From positions 1 to 30,962 of IMG/VR virus record IMGVR_UViG_3300020196_000159: DNA of 30,962 nt; one strand, 5' to 3'. The position numbers and the translations under genes are program-made. Every line of letters begins with the position of its first letter. Position 1 is the first letter of the stretch. The stretch comes from a virus. Below are positions 4,305 to 30,611 of this stretch, in pieces. The notes beneath the pieces were generated by a model, which saw nothing but the letters and a program-made list of their open reading frames with translations, did no database searches and was not told the DNA's origin.

Positions 4305-4310
4305 TTTATG
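4298..4310 (+). repeat. 13-bp direct repeat, upstream copy flanking HNH gene
   Basis: AGGATAATTTATG contains the end of the polymerase gene, the Shine-Dalgarno AGGA and the start codon of the HNH gene. The same 13 bases recur at 5030-5042, where they hold the ribosome site and start codon of the following small gene. The HNH gene is therefore bracketed by identical translation-start cassettes, as expected if it was inserted between two genes while keeping a working start for the downstream one. Confidence 0.7.
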
Positions 4311-5036
4311 GAAGCAAAAATTTGTTCTAAATGTAAAGAAGAAAAAAGCGTAAGTGATTTCTACATCGGTAGAAAACAATGCAAAAAATGTCTTGTAGAA
4401 CGTGAAGCTCAATACTATTCTGCCAATAAGGAAAAGATTGCAGAACAAAAAGCTCAATATCGTTCTGCCAATAAGGAAAAGATTGCAGAACAAAAAGCTC
4501 AATACTATTCTGCCAATAAGGAAAAGATTGCAGAACAAAAAGCTCAATACTATTCTGCCAATAAGGAAAAGCTTGTAGAACGTGAAGCTCAATATCGTTC
4601 TGCCAATAAGGAAAAGATTGCAGAACGTCAAGCTCAATATCGTTCTGCCAATAAGGAAAAGATTGCAGAACAAAAAGCTCAATACGTGAATAAAAGACTT
4701 AAAACCGATCCGCGATTTAAATTAGACATTTATTTCAGTAGATCCATTAGAGATACTTTAAAAAATATTAATTCTTCAAAGAATGGCCGTAGTTGGGAAA
4801 GTTTAGTAGGTTATAGCGCACAACAATTAAAAGAACATCTTGAGAAACAATTCAAACCAGAAATGAATTGGGAAAATCACGGGACATATTGGCACATAGA
4901 CCATAAAAGGCCGAAGAGTTGGTTTAATTATGATAGCGCTGAACATCCAGATTTTAAACAGTGTTGGGCTTTAGAAAACTTGCAGCCATTAGAGGCTACA
5001 GAAAATATGAAAAAGAGTAACAAATTTGAAGGATAA
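4308..5036 (+). CDS. HNH homing endonuclease with tandem 15-residue repeats
   Basis: A 242-residue free-standing nuclease. The N-terminus has a CxxC...CxxC zinc-finger-like segment (CSKCKEEKS to CKKC, residues about 5-29). Residues 34-123 are six nearly identical 15-residue repeats (AQYxSANKEKIAEQK). The C-terminus carries the HNH core: WHIDHKRPKSWF with H196, D198 and H199, then CWALENLQPLEATENMKKSNK, the Asn/His pattern of phage HNH homing enzymes. The repeats probably form a long helix acting as a spacer between the DNA-reading finger and the nuclease. It is a selfish element next to the polymerase gene; such enzymes usually cut alleles lacking the insertion. The flanking 13-bp repeat marks likely insertion borders. 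Confidence 0.9.
   Translation: MEAKICSKCKEEKSVSDFYIGRKQCKKCLVEREAQYYSANKEKIAEQKAQYRSANKEKIAEQKAQYYSANKEKIAEQKAQYYSANKEKLVEREAQYRSANKEKIAERQAQYRSANKEKIAEQKAQYVNKRLKTDPRFKLDIYFSRSIRDTLKNINSSKNGRSWESLVGYSAQQLKEHLEKQFKPEMNWENHGTYWHIDHKRPKSWFNYDSAEHPDFKQCWALENLQPLEATENMKKSNKFEG
4407..4676 (+). repeat. 45-bp tandem repeat (six units) inside HNH gene
   Basis: Six in-frame units of exactly 45 bp start at 4407, 4452, 4497, 4542, 4587 and 4632, and a truncated seventh begins at 4677. Differences are few and mostly second/third-position changes (YY versus YR; EQK versus ERE or ERQ). Near identity at the DNA level indicates recent expansion by slippage or recombination, so copy number may vary between relatives. 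Confidence 0.95.
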
Positions 5037-6146: not shown

Positions 6147-6926
6147 ATGAAAATTAGCAGAAATTATTTAAAACAAGTTATTAAAGAAGAATATCAAAGA
6201 GTGATTAACGAATCATTTACTGAAGATGTTACAGTAAGAATGAAAGCGTTAGACTATCTAAAGTTAACAACAGATGAAGAAACAAGGCAATATCTTTCAA
6301 AGCGTTTTGAAATAGAAGGTATGGATTACTATCCTACCCGTGCGGGCGATCTATTTATAGCAGTTCGCAATGATAAGGTTGTTAATCATGAAGGACGCAA
6401 CAGAGCATATGCAAACATTAAGAAAAACGGTCCAGATGCAGAAAACGATGTTTTAATAACCATTGAAAATGGTAGATATGATGATTTAACATATTTGAAT
6501 GGTCAACTAGAAGATGATGTTTATGTAAATGTTAAAAATTTTAAAATAATTAGTCGCAATATTGAAGACCAAGTTTCTAATTTCTTAGATTTTGGCGATG
6601 GACCAATAAAGTTTAAGACATTAGTTTATCCACCTAATCCATACATGCCAGAAGAAAGAGTTAAGCCGGGATCTAAAGAATTTTTAGATTTTATTGAAGA
6701 AAAATATGCCCCTTATGCAATGAATTACAGAAAGTTAAATAATATAGAAAACTTTACTGGTGAAGAAAGAAACAAATTTTTTAAAAATTATATAGAACAA
6801 ATAAATGATAATTTTATTATTTCTGACAGCGAAGGGCCGTTAAAATTAATACATAAAGGCTTTAGACAGGTAGAGCTAGACAGACAGCCAAACCCAAGAG
6901 ATACAATAAAATTAGAGAAGAAATAA
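6147..6926 (+). CDS. signature-bearing hypothetical protein, possible virion component
   Basis: 259 residues with a GGAG site before the ATG. The N-terminus (KISRNYLKQVIKEEYQRV) belongs to a recurring amphipathic signature found on at least five other proteins here. I infer a head-targeting or cleavable leader with a possible cut after I-K-E, by analogy with T4 internal proteins. The rest is soluble, mixed alpha/beta, with no recognisable enzyme motif; the middle (AYANIKKNGPDAENDVLITIENG) may be a beta-rich domain. It is the first gene after an ACTATTTAT box and ends in a TAATG overlap with the next gene. Function unknown. Confidence 0.75.
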   Translation: MKISRNYLKQVIKEEYQRVINESFTEDVTVRMKALDYLKLTTDEETRQYLSKRFEIEGMDYYPTRAGDLFIAVRNDKVVNHEGRNRAYANIKKNGPDAENDVLITIENGRYDDLTYLNGQLEDDVYVNVKNFKIISRNIEDQVSNFLDFGDGPIKFKTLVYPPNPYMPEERVKPGSKEFLDFIEEKYAPYAMNYRKLNNIENFTGEERNKFFKNYIEQINDNFIISDSEGPLKLIHKGFRQVELDRQPNPRDTIKLEKK

Positions 6927-9036: not shown

Positions 9037-9918
9037 ATGAGCAAAAAAGAATTATTAAATGAAACAGAAATTCGTCGTTTCATGAAATTAGCTAATCTTG
9101 AACCATTAGCTAGAAACGTTGTGGTAGAACGCGGTGGCCAAATCCAACAAGATGCATCTCTCCCTGAATATACACTCCCAGAAAACGAAAAATGCCTAGC
9201 AGAAGTAGATGGGTCCGCCGATGGTGTACCTGCACCAGCTCCAGCTATCGCAGAAAAAGAAGGTATGGATGTAGAATTAGATGACGCTGGTGGTGTTGAC
9301 GCAAAGGCTGTTGTTAAGGCCGCAGTTGATGCGCTCCTAGCCGGTCTAAAACAAGCTGGTGTGGACGTAGGTGATATTTCCGTGGAAGAAGAAGGAGGTG
9401 AAGAATCAGGAGCGGAAATGGATATGGGCGGCGAAGAGGAAAAAGGTGAAGAAGAAGGCGGCGAAGAGGAAGAAGAAGCCGATGAAGAAGAAATGGATGA
9501 GTCTGCCGCTTCTGCCTCTGCTCTTTCTGAAGACGCACTAGTTGAAGCTGTCCTAACTCGCGTTACTGCTCGCTTAATGGAAGAAGCAAAAAAGGCAAAA
9601 GCCAAGAAGGGCAAGAAAGGCGTTCCTGCAAAGATGGCAGCTAAAGCAGCCTCCAAACCAGCAGAAGAGAAGGATAAAGAAGAAGACAAAAAGACCCTAG
9701 AAGAAGCTACTAGTGCCGAAGGTGGTGGTCCACTTCTAAAACAAGGTAAGAATAAGTATGATGTTTATAAGGGTCATGCAGATATGACCATGGCCAAGGG
9801 CGATAAGGGCGGTAAAGGCGGTCACTCACTAGAAACCGTAACAGCAAAAGCCGAACACACTGTAAGCCATGGTGGTAAAAATCTTGCAACACTAGGTGGT
9901 AACAAGAAGAAAGTATAA
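9037..9918 (+). CDS. acidic scaffold-like protein, probable prohead core/internal head protein
   Basis: 293 residues. The N-terminus LLNETEIRRFMKLANLEPL resembles openings I recall from structural proteins of large aquatic phages. Residues about 110-165 are extremely acidic (repeated GGEE/EEE blocks), followed by a lysine/alanine block (about 185-205) and a glycine/lysine-rich tail. This low-complexity charged layout is typical of scaffold or internal head proteins and argues against an enzyme. TAGGAG 7 bases before the ATG and codons richer in GC than its neighbours (GCC, GGC, CGC) suggest strong expression. It is the first gene after a candidate promoter and hairpin. The scaffold role is inference; the long - strand frame opposite it is a by-product of GAA/GAG repeats. 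Confidence 0.75.
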   Translation: MSKKELLNETEIRRFMKLANLEPLARNVVVERGGQIQQDASLPEYTLPENEKCLAEVDGSADGVPAPAPAIAEKEGMDVELDDAGGVDAKAVVKAAVDALLAGLKQAGVDVGDISVEEEGGEESGAEMDMGGEEEKGEEEGGEEEEEADEEEMDESAASASALSEDALVEAVLTRVTARLMEEAKKAKAKKGKKGVPAKMAAKAASKPAEEKDKEEDKKTLEEATSAEGGGPLLKQGKNKYDVYKGHADMTMAKGDKGGKGGHSLETVTAKAEHTVSHGGKNLATLGGNKKKV

Positions 9919-10000: not shown

Positions 10001-10273
10001 ATGGAACTCACAAAAAAACAATTAAAGCAAATAATTTCAGAAGAAGTAGAAAAGATTTCTGAATCTCCTGATTCCTACCAAAGATTGGTAGAAGGCTATG
10101 CCGATGGTTATGCTACTTCAGATGATACAGTATCCAAGCAGGCGCTAATTGACTTACTAGAAGTATTAGACGAAAGCACTATTCCTAGAGATGCTTTTGA
10201 AGCATTCATGGAAAATCTAGATGAAGGTTCTGTTTTACCATTATTAAAAGAAGTAGTTAGCGAAGAAGAATAG
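10001..10273 (+). CDS. small signature-bearing acidic protein (90 aa)
   Basis: 90 residues with the recurring N-terminal signature (ELTKKQLKQIISEEVEKI) and a mostly acidic helical body (VSKQALIDLLEVLDEST, FMENLDEGSVLPLLKEVV). AAGGA lies 9 bases before the ATG. It sits directly behind the scaffold-like gene and ahead of a terminator, which fits a minor internal head protein; this is inference. No enzyme motif. Confidence 0.75.
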   Translation: MELTKKQLKQIISEEVEKISESPDSYQRLVEGYADGYATSDDTVSKQALIDLLEVLDESTIPRDAFEAFMENLDEGSVLPLLKEVVSEEE

Positions 10274-13887: not shown

Positions 13888-14850
13888 ATGATTAAAATAA
13901 AAATTAAAAACAATCTTTTTAAAGAGGCTCTTTTTAAATATTCTAAAACAGCTAGTGAAGAAATCTATAATACTCTAATACCATATTTTAAAAATAACGA
14001 AGAACACAAAATTTCTATTGGCGTACCATTAAATGAAATATTATACGATCAAAGAGCACAAAGCAATGGTGCGCCTTTTTTATATTACGCTAATGCTTTA
14101 GGAAATGAATTTACTGAGATATCGCAATTAAAAACATATTGGAATAAAAAAAATAAGCTATTTGATCAAAAATTTATTAAGTCAATAATACAACAAAAAT
14201 TTCCGATACAGATAGAGTTATCTAATAAAATTACTAATAAAAAAACATTTGGAGATATTTTTATATATCAACAAGATAGAATAAACACTGTATTTAAAAT
14301 TGTATTTTATATTAAAAATTATAACGGTAACGCAGATGTTTTTAAGCAAGCTATAAAACATGAACTTCGTCACATAAATCAATATATAAATAAATTAGCA
14401 ATAAAATATGGTGAAGAAATAGATTTAGAAAATGATGTTAATAAAATGTTTCCAATACCAATTAGAATACAAGAAGAATTCTTATTTACACCTATTGGAA
14501 TTGGGCAACAAACAACTGGTTTAGAAGCGGATACTGGCGGTAAGAGATATATTCAAGGCGATATAGAATTTGAGCCTCATTTAGCGGACGTAGTAGAATA
14601 TACTATAGGCGGCTTAATTAATACAAATAAACAAATATTAGATAAAAGCATCGATTCTAAACAGCTAGCAAATAATTTAGTAGATAAAATTATTAATAAT
14701 AGAATATTTGCCTATTCTGTGTTTAAGTCTAGTGGAAGAACAGATTTGCTAAATATTGTAGATGAATTAAACAAAATTAGGTCTGACGAGTTTTCTAAAA
14801 AATTTAAAAAGAATTTAAAAATTGAAATAGATAATGTTAGAAAAGCATAA
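13888..14850 (+). CDS. putative zinc metallopeptidase with MIKIKIK N-terminus
   Basis: 320 residues. VFKQAIKHELRHINQYINKL contains HELRH at 158-162, a match to the HExxH zinc-site helix of zincin peptidases, within a helix-compatible hydrophobic context. A plausible third ligand is in EFEPHLADVVEY, about residues 230-240, but I cannot fix it. The N-terminus MIKIKIKNNLFKEAL matches the start of proteins at 18692 and 23348, which I read as a shared sorting signal. The protein is very rich in Lys, Asn and Ile, following the low GC of its gene. It ends the 11005-14850 run, 20 bases before the chaperonin start. Role in virion maturation or cell-wall entry is only a guess. Confidence 0.7.
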   Translation: MIKIKIKNNLFKEALFKYSKTASEEIYNTLIPYFKNNEEHKISIGVPLNEILYDQRAQSNGAPFLYYANALGNEFTEISQLKTYWNKKNKLFDQKFIKSIIQQKFPIQIELSNKITNKKTFGDIFIYQQDRINTVFKIVFYIKNYNGNADVFKQAIKHELRHINQYINKLAIKYGEEIDLENDVNKMFPIPIRIQEEFLFTPIGIGQQTTGLEADTGGKRYIQGDIEFEPHLADVVEYTIGGLINTNKQILDKSIDSKQLANNLVDKIINNRIFAYSVFKSSGRTDLLNIVDELNKIRSDEFSKKFKKNLKIEIDNVRKA

Positions 14851-18691: not shown

Positions 18692-19153
18692 ATGATCAAG
18701 ATTAAATTAAAAAAACCAACTGCTAAATTAGAAACGGACACTTATAAACATTTCCATCCCATGGATGGCGAAGGTGTTCCGCAAATGAATACTATGGAAG
18801 AATGTGGCTGTGATCCAGCACCAGATGAATACGGTAAATCGCAAAGCGGAGATCCAGATTTGAATGGTGATGGTGTATATAGCCCAGCGGAATTATATTA
18901 TCACTTTGATTTAAATGGCGATGGAAACGTCTTACCAGACGAATACGAGCAACATGTTAAATGGCACGCTCGCAATCCAGAAGTATTTGGAGATAGCGAT
19001 GAGCAATTATATTTGCCGGAAGAGTTTTTAAAAGAAAAGAAAGATCGCTGTTACCGTTTAGCTAAACAAAAATACGATGTCTTCCCTTCTGCTTATGCTT
19101 CTGGTTTTATTGTGCGTTGCCGTAAAGGCAAGGTTGCTAAAAAGAAAAAATAA
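18692..19153 (+). CDS. EF-hand-like protein with MIKIKLKK start and SAYASG tail
   Basis: 153 residues from ATG 18692. The in-frame ATG 18668 lies in the terminator tail and is rejected. MIKIKLKK matches the starts of the 13888 and 23348 proteins. Two canonical 12-residue calcium loops follow: DLNGDGVYSPAE (56-67) and DLNGDGNVLPDE (73-84), with acidic or amide ligands at 1, 3, 5 and 12. They are only five residues apart, closer than in a standard EF-hand pair and more like dockerin or thrombospondin-type repeats. The end RCYRLAKQKY, FPSAYASGFIVRCRKGK is a basic Cys-containing motif I recall from other large aquatic phages. Probably a calcium-binding virion protein; TAATG coupling to the next gene. 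Confidence 0.8.
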   Translation: MIKIKLKKPTAKLETDTYKHFHPMDGEGVPQMNTMEECGCDPAPDEYGKSQSGDPDLNGDGVYSPAELYYHFDLNGDGNVLPDEYEQHVKWHARNPEVFGDSDEQLYLPEEFLKEKKDRCYRLAKQKYDVFPSAYASGFIVRCRKGKVAKKKK

Positions 19154-19482
19154 TGTCTATTAAATCTTTATTAGAAAACATGATTCGGGAAATAATTCAA
19201 GAAGAATATCTTGATGTAAGCGATTTACTGGTTGAAGGTACTTTTGATAAAGAGAAAAGCAGTGGTCTACACGGTTGGTTTCAGCGTCAAGGTGGAAAAG
19301 GTAAAAGCAAAGGTTGGGTGGATTGTTCTTCTTGTAGAACTAACCCCAAGACTGGCAAAAAAACTTGTAAGTCGTGTGGTAGACAAACCGGAGAAAAAAG
19401 AAAATATCCTTCCTGTAGGCCGACACCAAGTGCTTGTTCAATGCCGGGTAAGGGAAAAAAATGGGGTAAAAAAGGTGGATAG
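19153..19482 (+). CDS. small basic Cys-rich protein with signature-like N-terminus
   Basis: 109 residues coupled to the previous gene by TAATG. The N-terminal segment SLLENMIREIIQEEYLDV fits the recurring signature shifted by a few residues (IREIIQE-EYLDV versus KQVIKE-EYQRV). It is followed by GLHGWFQRQGGKGKSKGWVD, CSSC, CKSCGR, and GEKRKYPSCRPTPSAC. C58/C61 and C72/C75 could form a zinc ribbon; C88 and C95 are extra. The GEKRKYPSCRPT block occurs, as I recall, in proteins of many phages and giant viruses as a domain of unknown function. The strongly basic tail suggests contact with packaged DNA. Its last bases overlap the start of an HNH gene. Confidence 0.8.
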   Translation: MSIKSLLENMIREIIQEEYLDVSDLLVEGTFDKEKSSGLHGWFQRQGGKGKSKGWVDCSSCRTNPKTGKKTCKSCGRQTGEKRKYPSCRPTPSACSMPGKGKKWGKKGG

Positions 19483-19972
19483 TAAAATTTGTATTGCTTG
19501 TGGACAGTCTTTTTTTAATGAAAGTAAATATTTTAGTAGGCAAAAATATTGTTCTAAAAAATGTAAACAGAAACAAACAGATATAAGAAGATCGAAAAAA
19601 GAAAATAGACTTATAAGTAGAAGAAAAATAGATTTACGCTATAGAAACAAAAATTTAGATAAAAGAAGAAAAGCTTACTCAACTTGGGCTAAAAGCAAAA
19701 GAGGAAAAATATTAAGAAGTGTTTCCTGTTCTTGTCGTCATAAAAGAGTTAAAAAACAAACTCCACCTTGGGCAGATTTAGAAGCTATTAAAAAAATTTA
19801 TTTATTATGCGAAGAAATGAATTTAAAAGAAAATATTTATCAAGTTGATCATATATATCCTTTGAATGGAAAAGAAGTTTGCGGTTTACATATAGCAGAA
19901 AATTTAACAATAATCACAGCAAAACAAAATCAACAAAAAGGTAATAAATTACCAAACCAACCGGAAAAATAA
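19475..19972 (+). CDS. HNH homing endonuclease (GTG start)
   Basis: 165 residues if started at GTG 19475, 8 bases before the end of the previous gene. The frame extends upstream to 19232 but there only shadows that gene. The N-terminus has CIACGQSFF...RQKYCSKKC, a zinc-finger-like module common in these nucleases. A basic linker (about 35-100) follows. The C-terminus YQVDHIYPLNGKEVCGLHIA, ENLTIITAKQNQQKGNK is the HNH core: Asp-His, then Asn and a terminal N/K motif as in phage homing enzymes. It borrows the end of the host gene for its translation start and ends 1 base before the next ATG, separating two probably co-transcribed genes. Confidence 0.85.
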   Translation: MDSKICIACGQSFFNESKYFSRQKYCSKKCKQKQTDIRRSKKENRLISRRKIDLRYRNKNLDKRRKAYSTWAKSKRGKILRSVSCSCRHKRVKKQTPPWADLEAIKKIYLLCEEMNLKENIYQVDHIYPLNGKEVCGLHIAENLTIITAKQNQQKGNKLPNQPEK

Positions 19973-19973
19973 A

Positions 19974-20390
19974 ATGTTAATCAATAAGACACATTTACAA
20001 AATATAATAAAAGAAAGCTTGCATGAGCATTTGATATTTGAAAGCGAACTAGGAGAGGATACTTCAATATTAGATGATGGTACGCCGGTTTGCGAAGCTT
20101 GCCTATATGAAGTAATGACTTGCGGTTGCCCAGATACTCTTGAAGAAGCAGAATATCAAGGACGTAAAGTAAGTTTAGGTAAGCCTTTTTTAACTCCCGG
20201 TGGCCCAAAAAAAAGAGCTGTTTATGTCCGTAATAAAAAAGGGAATGTCGTAAAAGTTAACTTTGGCGACAAAAAAATGAAAATTAAAAAATCAAATCCA
20301 AAACGTAGAAAGTCATTTAGAGCCAGACATAAATGTTCGCAAAAGAAAGATAGAACTACGGCTGGTTACTGGTCATGCAAGGCTTGGTAA
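19974..20390 (+). CDS. signature-bearing basic protein ending WSCKAW
   Basis: 138 residues. The N-terminus LINKTHLQNIIKESLHEHL is the recurring signature with I-K-E. VCEACLYEVMTCGCP supplies four cysteines (C40, C43, C50, C52). The C-terminal half, YQGRKVSLGKPFLTPGGPKK, RAVYVRNKKGNVVKVNFGD, KRRKSFRARHKCS and YWSCKAW, is a very basic domain I recall from many cyanophage and other aquatic phage genomes, with no assigned function. A virion, possibly DNA-contacting, protein is likely. It is squeezed between two homing endonuclease genes; the downstream one ends with a near copy of its terminus. Confidence 0.8.
   Translation: MLINKTHLQNIIKESLHEHLIFESELGEDTSILDDGTPVCEACLYEVMTCGCPDTLEEAEYQGRKVSLGKPFLTPGGPKKRAVYVRNKKGNVVKVNFGDKKMKIKKSNPKRRKSFRARHKCSQKKDRTTAGYWSCKAW
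20370..20390 (+). repeat. gene-end repeat, copy 1 (WSCKAW stop)
   Basis: The last 21 bases of the 19974 gene, TGG-TCA-TGC...TGG-TAA, encode WSCKAW and stop. Bases 21003-21023 at the end of the GIY-YIG gene are the same length, encode WSCRKW and stop, and match at 14 of 21 positions. Possibly a duplicated 3' gene end created by insertion of the nuclease gene. Confidence 0.4.
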
Positions 20391-20393
20391 AAA

Positions 20394-21023
20394 ATGTTTA
20401 TAGTATATTTGATACAAAATAAATTTACTGATAAATGTTATATTGGCTATACAAAACATTCTATTGAAAAAAGATGGAAACAACACTGTAGAAATTCAAA
20501 AAAACAAGTCAACACGCCATTTTATAATGCAATAAAAAAATATGGATTTGATTGTTGGGATAAAAAAGTTTTATTAGAATGTAATACCGCAGAAGAAGCA
20601 AAAAGTAAAGAAATAGAATTTATAGAAAAGTTTGGTTCTTATAAGAGTGGATATAATGCAACCTTGGGTGGCGATGGGAACAACGGTTTAATAATGACAG
20701 AAGAAAGTAACTTAAAAAGAAGTTTGGCCTTAAAAGGAAAACCTAAAAACTATTTAAGAATGCACGGTAAAAAACATTCCGCACAAACTATACAAAAGAT
20801 GAAAAAACCTAAAATTGATAAATCTAATTATCAAACCGAAGAATTTAAAAATTTGATGAGAAAAAAACAAGCAAAAGCTGCCAGAGAAAGAAGAGTTTTA
20901 ACAAAAGTACAATATGATGAAATTAATAAGTTAGTTAGCGACGGCATTAGCAAAAAACAAATTTCTTTATTATTGTCAATCAACTACGATATTGTAAAAA
21001 AATGGTCCTGCCGTAAATGGTAA
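20394..21023 (+). CDS. GIY-YIG homing endonuclease
   Basis: 209 residues. The catalytic domain (1-95) has VYLIQN and CYIGYT in place of GIY and YIG, KHSIEKRWKQH with the conserved Arg, FYNAIKKYGFDCW and EIEFIEKFGSYKSGYNATLG with the conserved Glu and Asn. DNA-binding NUMOD3-like segments follow (TEESNLKRSLALKGKPK, GKKHSAQTIQKMKK). A C-terminal helix-turn-helix (YDEINKLVSDGISKKQISLL) ends in WSCRKW. It starts 3 bases after the stop of the 19974 gene without a clear ribosome site. Selfish mobile gene; together with the HNH gene upstream it marks this spot as a homing hotspot. Confidence 0.92.
   Translation: MFIVYLIQNKFTDKCYIGYTKHSIEKRWKQHCRNSKKQVNTPFYNAIKKYGFDCWDKKVLLECNTAEEAKSKEIEFIEKFGSYKSGYNATLGGDGNNGLIMTEESNLKRSLALKGKPKNYLRMHGKKHSAQTIQKMKKPKIDKSNYQTEEFKNLMRKKQAKAARERRVLTKVQYDEINKLVSDGISKKQISLLLSINYDIVKKWSCRKW
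21003..21023 (+). repeat. gene-end repeat, copy 2 (WSCRKW stop)
   Basis: The last 21 bases of the GIY-YIG gene; see 20370-20390. Both copies keep the W-S-C-(K/R)-x-W-stop pattern with synonymous or conservative changes. Confidence 0.4.
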
Positions 21024-21057: not shown

Positions 21058-23346
21058 ATGAGCAATCCAAAGAATGATATTAATTTTTTAAGAGTAAAAT
21101 TAAAAAGGTTAGAGGGTTTTAAGACTTCTGCTAACACAGACTTGATAGACCTTAAAAGCTTTAAAACTAATACAGGTATAGATTTAACAGACCTAAAAAG
21201 TTTCAAAACTAATACAGGTATAGATTTAACAGACCTAAAAAGTTTCAAAACTAATACAGGTATAGATTTAACAGACCTAAAAAGTTTCAAAACTAATACA
21301 GGTATAGATTTAACAGACCTAAAAGGATTCAAGACTACCGCCAATACGGATTTAACAGACCTAAAAGGATTCAAGACTACTGCCAATACGGATTTGACGG
21401 ACCTTAAAAGCTTTAAAACTAATGCCGGTTTAGATTTAACCGATTTAAAGAGTTTCAAGACCAATGCAAATATAGATTTATCAGATTTAAAAGGGTTTAA
21501 AGCATCAGCCAACACAGACTTGATTGATTTGAAAGGTTTCAAGACTACTACCAACACAGATTTAACAGACCTAAAAAGCTTTAAAACCTCTACCAATACT
21601 GATTTGACAGGCTTAAAAAGCTTTAAAACTGGGCTAGAGAACGGAACCAGTATTCCAGTGGGATTATCTAATACTTTTAGAACCGCAGCGCAGGTTTCAA
21701 ACGATATAGCTGGCTTTAATTTTGATGGGGGCGCCAATCCTACTGTTACGCCGATAAGCAGATTTAATTCCGTATCACAATCGCATACGCAATATACAGG
21801 TAGTTATAACAATTTCTCTTCTTCGCACGGCTTTAAATTAAGTAGTATCGCATTTAGTGCTGCAGAAGAAGGAGCTTTTAAATTTGCTTCTTTGGCGGCA
21901 GCTTTAAAAACTTCTTTTTTTGCCGCCGCTAATGACCCAACAACTGGTTATGATAAAGGAAAGTGGTATTTTACTAATACCTTTCCAAGCGGAAACGCAG
22001 ATTATAAACTCTCTTCATATTCTTATCAGGGATACGATACACAAGAACGCTATAACAAAGAGGACTTTATAACTTATAGAAAAAGATTGTATACTGTTAC
22101 TAATAATGCTTATAGTAATGTTATAAATCAAGAAAGTGAACTTTTATTACAAGCTGGTAAGACAACTATTAGAGCTGGTACTCCAAATAACACCACTCCA
22201 ACTTTAAAAATAATTGGTGAGAGCGCTGCTTCCAATGGCGTTGGCGACGACCAAGGACAATTATTATTACAAGATGAAGATAATACAACAAGCGGTTTGA
22301 TGATTGGATACAAATATGTCGCCGCAGGAAATGAATACGGTAGGATACAAGCAAAGAATAGCGCTGGAAGTGCTACTGATTTATATATCAATCCTGCCGG
22401 TGGAAGTGTAAGGATAGGTCGTTTAAATAACAATTATGTAACGGATGGAGCTATAGAATTAAATTATTATGGAGCAGGAAATAGAAATTCATTTATAGAT
22501 TTTCATTCTGATGATTATTACGGCTATCCGGGTGGTAATCCTTCCGCTGGAGGAGATGGCGATTATAGCGGTAGAGTTATAAGATATTCTGGTACTGATG
22601 GAATGATGCAAATTGAAAATAAGGGTTTGGGTGGAATAAGAAATAAAGTTTCTTATGGCGATAGTGGAAATATTTTTGATTGGTATGTTGATAATACTAG
22701 ATTGATGTTTGTAAAAAGTACAGGTCAATTATGGGTTAAGGGTGGTACAACAACCGGAGCAGGAATTAACGTATGGAATGGCGATGTAGCATTAAATTTA
22801 GGCCATCATCACTCCAGTGAAAATGCAGGTAGAATACAAGTTAAATCTGCTGGTTTGGAAGGCACCATCGGAGAAACGAATTATATCTTAAAATTAAACC
22901 CAGATGGTGGAACCGTTTACTCAAATAATGGTATAGTATCTACATCCGATGAAAGAATAAAATATGATATAAAAGAAAGTATTTTAGGATTAGAATTTAT
23001 CAATAAAATAAAACCCGTATCTTATAAATATAAAATAAGAGATATAACTTATGCAACAGGTTCCAACGGAGAAGAGGTGAAAATTCAAAAAACAGGCGTC
23101 AGACCACATTACGGCTTCATAGCACAGCAAATTAAAGAGGCATTGGGAGAGAATGATTTTGCTGGCTATATTTATGAACCATCTCTAGACGAACATGCTT
23201 TACGATATGATGAATTTATTTCTCCAATGGTCAAAGCAATTCAAGAATTATCACAAAAAAATGACTATTTACAGAAAGAACTAGAAGAAAAAGATAAATT
23301 ATTACAAGATATTTTATCAAGATTATCATCACTAGAAAATAAATAA
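21058..23346 (+). CDS. tail fibre/spike with 14-residue repeats and S74 chaperone domain
   Basis: 762 residues. After 19 residues come twelve 14-residue repeats (consensus SFKTNTGIDLTDLK, residues 20-187), two heptads each, which should form a rigid trimeric coiled-coil shaft. The middle (about 190-620) is a beta-rich region with Gly/Asn/Ser-rich strands. The C-terminus is a peptidase S74 intramolecular chaperone: STSDERIKYDIKES with self-cleavage expected before S630, then INKIKPVSYKYK, YGFIAQQIKEAL, RYDEFISPMVKAIQEL and a final coiled coil. The chaperone drives trimerisation and is then cut off. AAGGA lies before a three-codon ORF (21050-21061) whose stop overlaps this ATG. First gene of the adhesin block. 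Confidence 0.93.
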   Translation: MSNPKNDINFLRVKLKRLEGFKTSANTDLIDLKSFKTNTGIDLTDLKSFKTNTGIDLTDLKSFKTNTGIDLTDLKSFKTNTGIDLTDLKGFKTTANTDLTDLKGFKTTANTDLTDLKSFKTNAGLDLTDLKSFKTNANIDLSDLKGFKASANTDLIDLKGFKTTTNTDLTDLKSFKTSTNTDLTGLKSFKTGLENGTSIPVGLSNTFRTAAQVSNDIAGFNFDGGANPTVTPISRFNSVSQSHTQYTGSYNNFSSSHGFKLSSIAFSAAEEGAFKFASLAAALKTSFFAAANDPTTGYDKGKWYFTNTFPSGNADYKLSSYSYQGYDTQERYNKEDFITYRKRLYTVTNNAYSNVINQESELLLQAGKTTIRAGTPNNTTPTLKIIGESAASNGVGDDQGQLLLQDEDNTTSGLMIGYKYVAAGNEYGRIQAKNSAGSATDLYINPAGGSVRIGRLNNNYVTDGAIELNYYGAGNRNSFIDFHSDDYYGYPGGNPSAGGDGDYSGRVIRYSGTDGMMQIENKGLGGIRNKVSYGDSGNIFDWYVDNTRLMFVKSTGQLWVKGGTTTGAGINVWNGDVALNLGHHHSSENAGRIQVKSAGLEGTIGETNYILKLNPDGGTVYSNNGIVSTSDERIKYDIKESILGLEFINKIKPVSYKYKIRDITYATGSNGEEVKIQKTGVRPHYGFIAQQIKEALGENDFAGYIYEPSLDEHALRYDEFISPMVKAIQELSQKNDYLQKELEEKDKLLQDILSRLSSLENK
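21115..21618 (+). repeat. 42-bp tandem repeats coding fibre shaft (12 units)
   Basis: Twelve units of 42 bp run in frame. Units at 21199, 21241 and 21283 are identical in their first 36 bases or more, and the unit at 21157 differs by one or two bases, so the array grew recently. The opposite strand stays open for over 700 bases only because of this repeat. Shaft length could vary between isolates. Confidence 0.95.
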
Positions 23347-23347
23347 A

Positions 23348-23977
23348 ATGATTAAAATTAAAATTAAAAAATCAAGTGAAAAAATGATTGGTGGCGCTGG
23401 AGATTTTAGACCAGATAGTGAATTGGATCCAGAATTACTTGATTTGGCTATCGATAAAGAAATAGGCGATCATGGTTTGGATTCTGAACAAGCAAAAGAA
23501 GTAGCAAAAGATGAATTTATACTTGATGACAAAAACTATTCAAAAGAAGTAAAAAAGAAAGCTAGCAGAAAGCTAAGTGAATATTGGCGCTCAAGAGCAA
23601 AACGCAGAGCGCATAATGCAGGGCGCTCATGGGTTAACAAAACAGACTATAATTGGGCTCTGCAAGAACAAGCTAAATCAACTTTTATTAACGATTCAGT
23701 ACAACGTTTATTCGAAAAAGAATTACAAACTAATGAAGAAATAAGTGGCGTAATACATGATTTATTAGAAAAATTAAAAAAGAATAGGCAAAGAAAAAAC
23801 AAGCTTAATGTTAAAAAGTTTGGTCCCGGCACACCTAATAAAGCAAATAAAAGCTTATCAAAACCATATCCACCACACAAAAAGGGCGAAACAGTTGGTG
23901 GTTATTATAGAAAGGCCGCTAAGAAACTTGGTGGCATAACTGCTGCTCCCGGTGAAGCTATAGGACCAATGGAATAA
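23348..23977 (+). CDS. basic virion-type protein with MIKIKIKK start
   Basis: 209 residues starting 1 base after the fibre stop. MIKIKIKKSSEKMIGG shares its opening with the 18692 and 13888 proteins. An acidic segment (RPDSELDPELLDLAIDKEIG) is followed by the basic block SEYWRSRAKRRAHNAGRSWV, NKTDYNWALQEQ, which I recall from other large aquatic phages. It ends with a basic, Pro/Gly-rich tail (FGPGTPNKANKSLSKPYPP). It has no enzyme motif. I infer a DNA-contacting or head-internal protein, although it sits among fibre genes. Function unknown. Confidence 0.75.
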   Translation: MIKIKIKKSSEKMIGGAGDFRPDSELDPELLDLAIDKEIGDHGLDSEQAKEVAKDEFILDDKNYSKEVKKKASRKLSEYWRSRAKRRAHNAGRSWVNKTDYNWALQEQAKSTFINDSVQRLFEKELQTNEEISGVIHDLLEKLKKNRQRKNKLNVKKFGPGTPNKANKSLSKPYPPHKKGETVGGYYRKAAKKLGGITAAPGEAIGPME

Positions 23978-28262: not shown

Positions 28263-28589
28263 ATGAAAATCTCCAAGGATTTTTTAAGACAAATTATTAA
28301 AGAGTGTATGGCAGATATGGGTGCTCCTTATCCTGCTGCTTTACCTCCAATGCGACAAGCCAAAGTATCTAATTTCGTCGCTGATCCTGATGGCTATGAA
28401 GGCAGAATGGCAAAAGCTAATTTGTATAAAACAGCCGAGTATGCTACAATGCTGCAAGGATTAATACAAGATAATGAAAATCTTGAACCTTGGGTACAAG
28501 AAAAGATTGCTGTTGCAGCTTCAATGATGGAGAGCGTCGGACATTATTTACAATATGAAAAAATGCGCGGAACATCAGTTGGTGAATAG
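28263..28589 (+). CDS. signature-bearing helical protein (108 aa)
   Basis: 108 residues. KISKDFLRQIIKECMADM is the recurring signature with I-K-E. A proline/alanine linker (APYPAALPPMRQAK) joins it to a helical domain: YEGRMAKANLYKTAEYATML, NENLEPWVQEKIAVAASMME, HYLQYEK. That domain is a small conserved family I recall from large phages, without known function. The modular layout of signature, disordered linker and domain fits a sorting signal on a packaged cargo protein. Confidence 0.8.
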   Translation: MKISKDFLRQIIKECMADMGAPYPAALPPMRQAKVSNFVADPDGYEGRMAKANLYKTAEYATMLQGLIQDNENLEPWVQEKIAVAASMMESVGHYLQYEKMRGTSVGE

Positions 28590-30323: not shown

Positions 30324-30611
30324 ATGAAAATTACAAAAGATTATATTCGTGAATTAATTAAAGAATCTTTAAAAGAAGGTGGCAATTTCACACCTGCGAG
30401 TTTACCATATGAAGTTGGTCAAGAAGACGCCAGTTCACAAAATGAAGAAACTACTACTTTAACATTTGATATGCCTCCAGAAAAAATTGCTAATTTTCTT
30501 TTTACCATGACTAACCCCAATAGACTGCTTGGAAAACTAACTTACGTTTTTGCTGATAAGTATCCTCATCTAATACCTAAAGATAAACAATACCTTATTA
30601 GAAAAAAATAA
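30324..30611 (+). CDS. signature-bearing small protein (95 aa)
   Basis: 95 residues. KITKDYIRELIKESLKEGG is the clearest example of the recurring signature with I-K-E. It is followed by a polar linker (residues about 20-45) and a small domain (FDMPPEKIANFLFTMTNPNR, LTYVFADKYPHLIPKD). AAAGGA lies before the ATG, behind an ACTATTTAT box. Likely a minor virion or head-internal protein; no enzyme motif. Confidence 0.75.
   Translation: MKITKDYIRELIKESLKEGGNFTPASLPYEVGQEDASSQNEETTTLTFDMPPEKIANFLFTMTNPNRLLGKLTYVFADKYPHLIPKDKQYLIRKK

Follow-up and report, generated by a model that had tools for sequence, protein, structure and literature searches.

What three genes, each ending in a small, basic, cysteine-containing module, might do for a virus is the question raised by a 31-kb record of a virus contig (30,962 nucleotides, called the window below), on the plus strand of which they lie. 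The original prediction, made from the letters alone, saw in their products a set of packaged DNA- or RNA-binding proteins, a chromatin-like kit of the virion. In phage T4 the protease gp21 cleaves after L/I-X-E, and internal proteins enter the head via a removable N-terminal targeting sequence; a capsid-targeting sequence (CTS) of about 10 residues is enough to package foreign proteins (PMC9026906). In this work we conclude that genes 1 to 3 probably encode precursors of gp21-processed internal head proteins in a T4-like phage; their targeting, cleavage, DNA binding and ejection we infer.

The window encodes a DNA polymerase III alpha, a dUTPase, an IMP dehydrogenase, GroEL, Hsp20 and an S74-type tail fibre. 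It is syntenic with a 187-kb relative, G001, which encodes a T4-type prohead protease (PF03420) and a T4-type capsid protein (PF07068). Neither gp21 nor gp23 is present on the 31-kb fragment, which does not cover the head genes. Two repeat arrays were noticed elsewhere in the window. The tail-fibre protein (21058-23346) carries about ten near-identical 14-residue DLKSFKTNTGIDLT repeats ahead of its S74 chaperone domain, and a reading frame at 4308-5036, zinc-finger-like at its start and HNH-like at its end, has YRSANKEKIAEQKAQ repeated in tandem in between.

We named the modules D1 (SAYASG), D2 (GEKRKYPxC) and D3 (SFRARHxC..YWSC). Genes 1 to 3 share a general plan, comprising an N-terminal tag, an acidic front and one distinct basic Cys module at the end (Table 1). 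The three motifs singled out by the prediction were confirmed to be in frame in three consecutive same-strand genes, with SAYASGFIVRCRKGK as the C-terminal end of gene 1, GEKRKYPSCRPTPSAC within gene 2 and SFRARHKCS...YWSCKAW as the C-terminal end of gene 3. Genes 1 and 2 overlap by one base, and the D1 part of gene 1 matches DUF5872/phrog_727. The acidic front of gene 1, predicted to be removed, contains two DLNGDG calcium-loop-like repeats (window 18857-18949), the EF-hand match of which is weak and below the cut-off (E 0.0058). The order D1, D2, D3 was correctly read, but the string is not unbroken: an HNH frame, which the prediction did not mention, splits D2 from D3. This gene is absent from the close relatives L003 and G002, where D3 starts directly after D2, and the GIY-YIG endonuclease is also absent from both (the place after D3 was checked in L003). 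Since these relatives carry neither endonuclease, we take D1-D2-D3 back to back to be the ancestral order. Both endonuclease genes were considered as parts of the system and rejected, being missing in the relatives; they are free-standing mobile elements.

Table 1. Positions of the features discussed, numbered along the window; a slash marks the predicted point of cleavage.
Feature	Position	Strand	Characteristics
Gene 1	18692..19153	+	MIKIK-type N-terminus, acidic front with two DLNGDG repeats, C-terminal D1 (SAYASG)
Predicted P1 Glu codon, gene 1	19034..19036	+	Site FLKE/KKDRC; from sequence, relatives arranged alike
Predicted mature D1 piece	19037..19150	+	38 aa, pI 10.4, net +12, 2 Cys
Gene 2	19153..19482	+	Tag MSIKSLLENMIREIIQEE, predicted site LLVE/GTFDKEK, D2 module
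Predicted mature D2 piece	19237..19479	+	81 aa, pI 10.2, net +17, zinc-ribbon-like Cys pattern
HNH endonuclease	19480..19972	+	About 490 bases, start codon uncertain; inserted between D2 and D3 genes
Gene 3	19974..20390	+	Tag MLINKTHLQNIIKES, predicted site TLEE/AEYQGRK, D3 module (phrog_7595)
Codons of predicted site, gene 3	20136..20147	+	T-L-E-E before A-E-Y-Q-G; same offset as in relatives
Predicted mature D3 piece	20148..20387	+	80 aa, pI 11.0, net +23; beta hairpins then two helices in model
GIY-YIG + NUMOD3 homing endonuclease	20394..21023	+	Inserted after D3 gene
D7 protein	23348..23977	+	MIKIK-type start, basic module KLSEYWRSRAKRRAHNAGRSW
Same-tag protein	6147..6926	+	MKISRNYLKQVIKEE...VINE/S
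Same-tag protein	10001..10273	+	MELTKKQLKQIISEE...KISE/S
Same-tag protein	28263..28589	+	MKISKDFLRQIIKE
Same-tag protein	30324..30611	+	MKITKDYIRELIKES

Across phages the modules occur together, in keeping with their proposed grouping as a set. Among 80 loci fetched by D1 alone, with 3 kb on either side, D2 was found within 3 kb of D1 in 73, and further modules were present, namely D6 (DUF6321) in 43, D5 in 21 and D3 in 13. Among the 919 genes called in five large relatives (712 kb), the D1-D3 hits fall in essentially one place per genome, with the exception of G011, which shows weak D1/D3 hits elsewhere. Fusions of D1 to D2 occur in G001, Flavobacterium phage immuto and many contigs, and a single 641-residue ORF of the relative L091 contains all three of D1, D2 and D3. 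The grouping of D1 to D3 is not due to chance. A search of 84,980 bacterial species genomes gave 54 D3 hits; because these are, by their titles, mostly metagenome-assembled contigs, a cellular origin of D3 is unlikely. The WRSRAKRRAHNAGRSW block at 23348, which the prediction had added to the set, turned out to be a recurring module too (D7), fused to several enzymes in relatives, where its homologues (L087, L085, L030, L009) make up the C-terminal portion of proteins resembling kinases, exonucleases and proteases. The D7 protein of the window is likely to be a further member of the kit. The D7 module has the pattern KLSxYWxxRAKRRA..W, and in several relatives it directly follows LLGE, LLIE or YLQE.

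Each module was said to stand behind an N-terminal tag, and this was borne out, MSIKSLLENMIREII and MLINKTHLQNIIKES being of one type and MIKIKLKKP of another. The first type, of consensus MKITKxxLKxIIxEE, is carried in the window by the D2 and D3 genes, and it also heads otherwise unrelated proteins at 6147, 10001, 28263 and 30324. Tags were scored by a PSSM, the score being attained by 2 of 4231 internal Met-anchored 15-mers; a loose regular expression was dropped, as its counts were about those of chance in most genomes. In three relatives (G001, G012 and G007) the gene immediately upstream of gp21 starts with an MKITK-type tag, and some D3 proteins from gp21-bearing phages are devoid of it. 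This short N-terminal sequence, common to unrelated proteins, would thus be a candidate targeting sequence. A second common N-terminus, MIKIKIK, is borne by three unrelated window proteins (13888, 18692 and 23348) and may be another targeting tag; the protein at 13888 has a HELRH metalloprotease-like motif. A third recurrent N-terminus, ELLNETEIRRFMKLANLEPL, heads an acidic low-complexity protein (window 9037-9918) and occurs also in G001 (140097) and G002 (3982).

Potential prohead-protease sites were found ahead of the modules. In an alignment of distinct upstream sequences anchored at the D3 start, 40 of 41 had [LIVM]-x-E at one fixed offset, with a variable P2 and a P1 Glu followed by A, G or S, and the control motif [LIVM]-x-D was scattered or absent, with no fixed position. 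Before D1, T4-like phages have FLYE/KKDRC, LSE/GKKKKKG, ISE/GKKDAC and similar sites, and the strict D1 pattern fits 16 of 19 gp21-bearing records; D2 is often preceded by LVE/GTFDKEK or a similar site. In 59 ORFs with at least two modules, the linkers contain 275 [LI]xE motifs versus 166 in shuffles of the same linkers, the motif being short and common in acidic linkers, so that shuffles reach 60% of the observed count; the modules themselves contain 8, versus 8.5 in shuffles. The major capsid proteins (MCPs) of relatives have an L-x-E/A/S/T site at the end of their propeptide. The overall density of [LI]xE was tried as a marker of virion proteins and rejected, since it gave no separation in Synechococcus phage S-CREM2 (0.93 per 100 aa in virion proteins versus 1.27 in non-virion proteins), and for this reason only positional tests were used. 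Each mature part would accordingly be preceded by a predicted L/I-X-E site.

The sites were then considered with respect to the protease. A gp21-type protease was found in G001, in HTVC008M, Melnitz, C48C1, immuto and pT24, and in S-CREM2. Complete D3-bearing phages fall into those with both gp21 and gp23 (HTVC008M, Melnitz, C48C1, immuto and pT24) and those with neither (Aegir, CRP-3, CRP-902, HTVC106P and CRP-6). D3 is preceded by LEE/A in HTVC008M, MME/S in Melnitz, LTE/A in C48C1 and LDE/G in immuto, and D3 genes of phages lacking gp21 begin at the would-be cleavage point (MA-KYQGRT in Aegir, MA-TYKGKS in CRP-902), as do the bare D1 genes of such phages. Tenacibaculum phage pT24 is an exception, with a very divergent gp21 hit and a D3 that has no LxE directly before it. 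An LxE was present upstream of D1 in 35 of 46 loci without a Mu-gpT-type capsid operon versus 2 of 33 within one (Fisher p=1.6e-10; p-values here overstate independence, the sequences being related by descent). Of 17 bare D1 genes, 16 have a capsid or adaptor gene within 3 kb; L204 shows the arrangement capsid protein (PF25209/PF10124), D3, D1, D2 and SU10-type adaptor. In Roseobacter phage CRP-6, an XkdF-type head protease (PF14550, E 7e-18) has D3 as its N-terminal part, and a match in a viral structure library was an XkdF-named protein containing the D3 fold.

The predicted mature products would be small and basic, with masses of 4.5, 8.8 and 9.2 kDa for D1, D2 and D3, and the propeptides of genes 1 to 3 are acidic (pI 4.2-4.5, net -15, -5 and -11). 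The charge of these putative pieces is consistent with the predicted DNA or RNA binding and chromatin-like role. Conserved Cys residues are present in each of D1 to D3; their interpretation as ordinary zinc ribbons was set aside, the best Pfam zinc-ribbon match being below the cut-off (E 0.012). The structure models were made from alignments without rows from annotated phage records. The D3 model is confident (pLDDT 88.8), and it had no match in the PDB at E<=0.001, hence no likeness to a solved DNA-binding protein; as there is no solved relative, the function of D3 cannot be read from its fold. The D1-D2 AlphaFold model is of low confidence and too poor to interpret, and PDB sequence searches with the D3 and D1-D2 profiles returned nothing. 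With regard to known families, Pfam DUF5872 (PF19197) covers both D1 and D2. Its gathering cut-off of 27.5 bits is reached by neither the window D1 protein (14 bits) nor the relative L085 (25.8 bits); a score of 60.3 bits was obtained with the bare D2 gene from L204. As judged by these scores, the window D1 protein is related to DUF5872 but below the membership cut-off. DUF5754 (PF19058) weakly matches some D3 members, and DUF6321 (PF19846) corresponds to D6. DUF5872 and DUF5754 are also present in a haptophyte virus (PMC12085832).

Evidence for a location in the virion comes from a homologue in S-CREM2. Its gp160, the only D1 protein of this phage, comprises a D2 variant, D5 and D1, and was detected by mass spectrometry in CsCl-purified virions, with 7 unique peptides and 13.1% coverage (PMC10665884 Table 3). 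The gp137 protein, which ends in D6, was likewise detected in virions (PMC10665884). Ahead of its module regions gp160 has the LxE sites LSE/ARDGK, LEE/KKNCW and ISE/GKKDAC. The N-terminus of this D1 protein differs from that of the window D1 protein, and S-CREM2 has no D3. The multi-module HMMs of D2, D5 and D6 were seeded with S-CREM2 sequences, so that their E-values in this phage are not independent; the D1 hit is. S-CREM2 has five proteins with a strict T4-type CTS, and every one of them was detected in the virion, versus a background of 52 of 219 (Fisher p=6.5e-4), which supports the use of T4-type CTSs in these phages. Absence from virions, which would have spoken against the prediction, is thus not what was observed in a relative, where a homologous D1+D2 protein is present. 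The idea of a set of packaged proteins is well supported by the co-occurrence of the modules, by [LI]xE sites matching the gp21 motif, by the capsid-gene neighbourhood in a second phage type, by the prohead protease fusion in CRP-6 and by gp160 in purified virions.

Taken as internal head proteins, the three products would act as follows. The N-terminal tag would serve as a CTS, bringing each precursor into the prohead core. During head maturation a gp21-type protease would cut after [LI]-x-E; with the tag and the acidic propeptide taken off, the small, very basic, Cys-bearing D1, D2 and D3 pieces would be released inside the head. In the many relatives in which the modules are chained, with [LI]xE in the linkers, one precursor would yield several pieces. 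The pieces would remain with the packaged genome, probably binding DNA, and may enter the host along with it, as T4 IPI-III do.

A possible, if rather unlikely, alternative is that the pieces are delivered host-takeover factors, like T4 Alt and IPI, instead of DNA-condensing proteins. The five strict-CTS proteins of the S-CREM2 virion include a SAM hydrolase, a kinase-like protein and a cytidylyltransferase, and the enzyme fusions of D7 point the same way. Against such a role, D1 to D3 have no enzymatic signature, and their highly basic character is the same in phages whose hosts are unrelated and range from cyanobacteria to flavobacteria, in better agreement with a general role than with one tied to a particular host. 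The notion that all three are early host-takeover genes was also considered and set aside.

It is less likely still that the modules are capsid-lining or cement proteins that stabilise the shell and contribute little to DNA binding or ejection, their Cys pairs forming disulphides or binding zinc. The conserved Cys of each module would suit such proteins, as would the bare D3-D1-D2 genes located between major capsid and head-tail adaptor genes in Mu-gpT-type phages. Residues 17-70 of gp160 (L162), just after a predicted cleavage site, resemble a capsid protein (phrog_696, E 4.8e-10), which also favours the shell. However, targeting and release by a prohead protease indicate the interior and not the outer surface, T4 outer decoration proteins are uncleaved (PMC9026906), and a net charge of +12 to +23 on 38-81 residues suits contact with nucleic acid better than with the shell. 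That the modules are non-virion, intracellular nucleic-acid-binding proteins, with LxE sites and tags as compositional accidents, is highly improbable: LxE is frequent in acidic linkers and D3 also adjoins non-head genes, such as peptidase M15A in HTVC106P, but the site has a fixed position and is lost in phages lacking gp21, the modules are located in capsid operons, one is fused to a head protease, and gp160 was detected in virions.

The internal-head-protein reading can be compared with known systems. With T4 IPI, IPII, IPIII and Alt (PMC9026906) the precursors share a short N-terminal targeting propeptide, an [LI]xE motif and, in relatives, a gp21-type protease; they also share small basic mature products (about 8-10 kDa for IPI and IPII) and a virion location, here that of a relative. 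They differ in the tag, MKITKxxLKxIIxEE not being of the T4 type, in mature D-module sequences that are unrelated and have paired Cys, and in the frequent presence of several modules in one precursor with internal sites, the modules being untagged in gp21-less phages. Judged by the features that could be tested, the system is a variant working like the T4 internal-protein system; we did not place it in the IP family because its mature modules are unrelated to the T4 IPs, modular and tagless in other phages. The T4 core proteins gp22 and gp67 (PMC9026906) likewise are single precursors with several [LI]xE cuts by gp21, some fragments of which are kept in the head, but these fragments come from scaffold or core proteins and not from a string of recurring Cys modules. 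The ejection proteins of phiKZ and SPN3US (PMC7411985) are similar in that a gp21-like protease acts on many internal proteins, recognising a short x-x-E motif; in SPN3US, however, the motif is AXE, and no modules in common were found in this analysis.

More tentatively, and with considerable doubt, D1 to D7 might constitute a transferable kit that is common inside the heads of unrelated aquatic viruses and the pieces of which would form a shared virion chromatin. They would be delivered as protease-cut 'string of beads' polyproteins in T4-like phages and as bare capsid-operon genes in Mu-gpT-type phages, with relatives in algal giant viruses.

The open-access library to which our search was confined yielded no earlier description of a link between these DUFs and prohead processing. 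Widespread as they are in aquatic phages, the modules have been catalogued only as DUFs or unknown PHROGs, and gp160 of S-CREM2 is listed as a hypothetical protein. For DUF5872, DUF5754 and DUF6321, families of unknown function, we propose a location in the head and processing sites. Their reading as prohead-protease substrates suggests a job for widespread function-less families, gives them a location in the virion and names precise cleavage sites that can be checked. On this reading, moreover, the T4 head-loading system may reach far beyond T4, often in the form of polyproteins, and that the same cargo modules may travel between phages with unrelated capsids.
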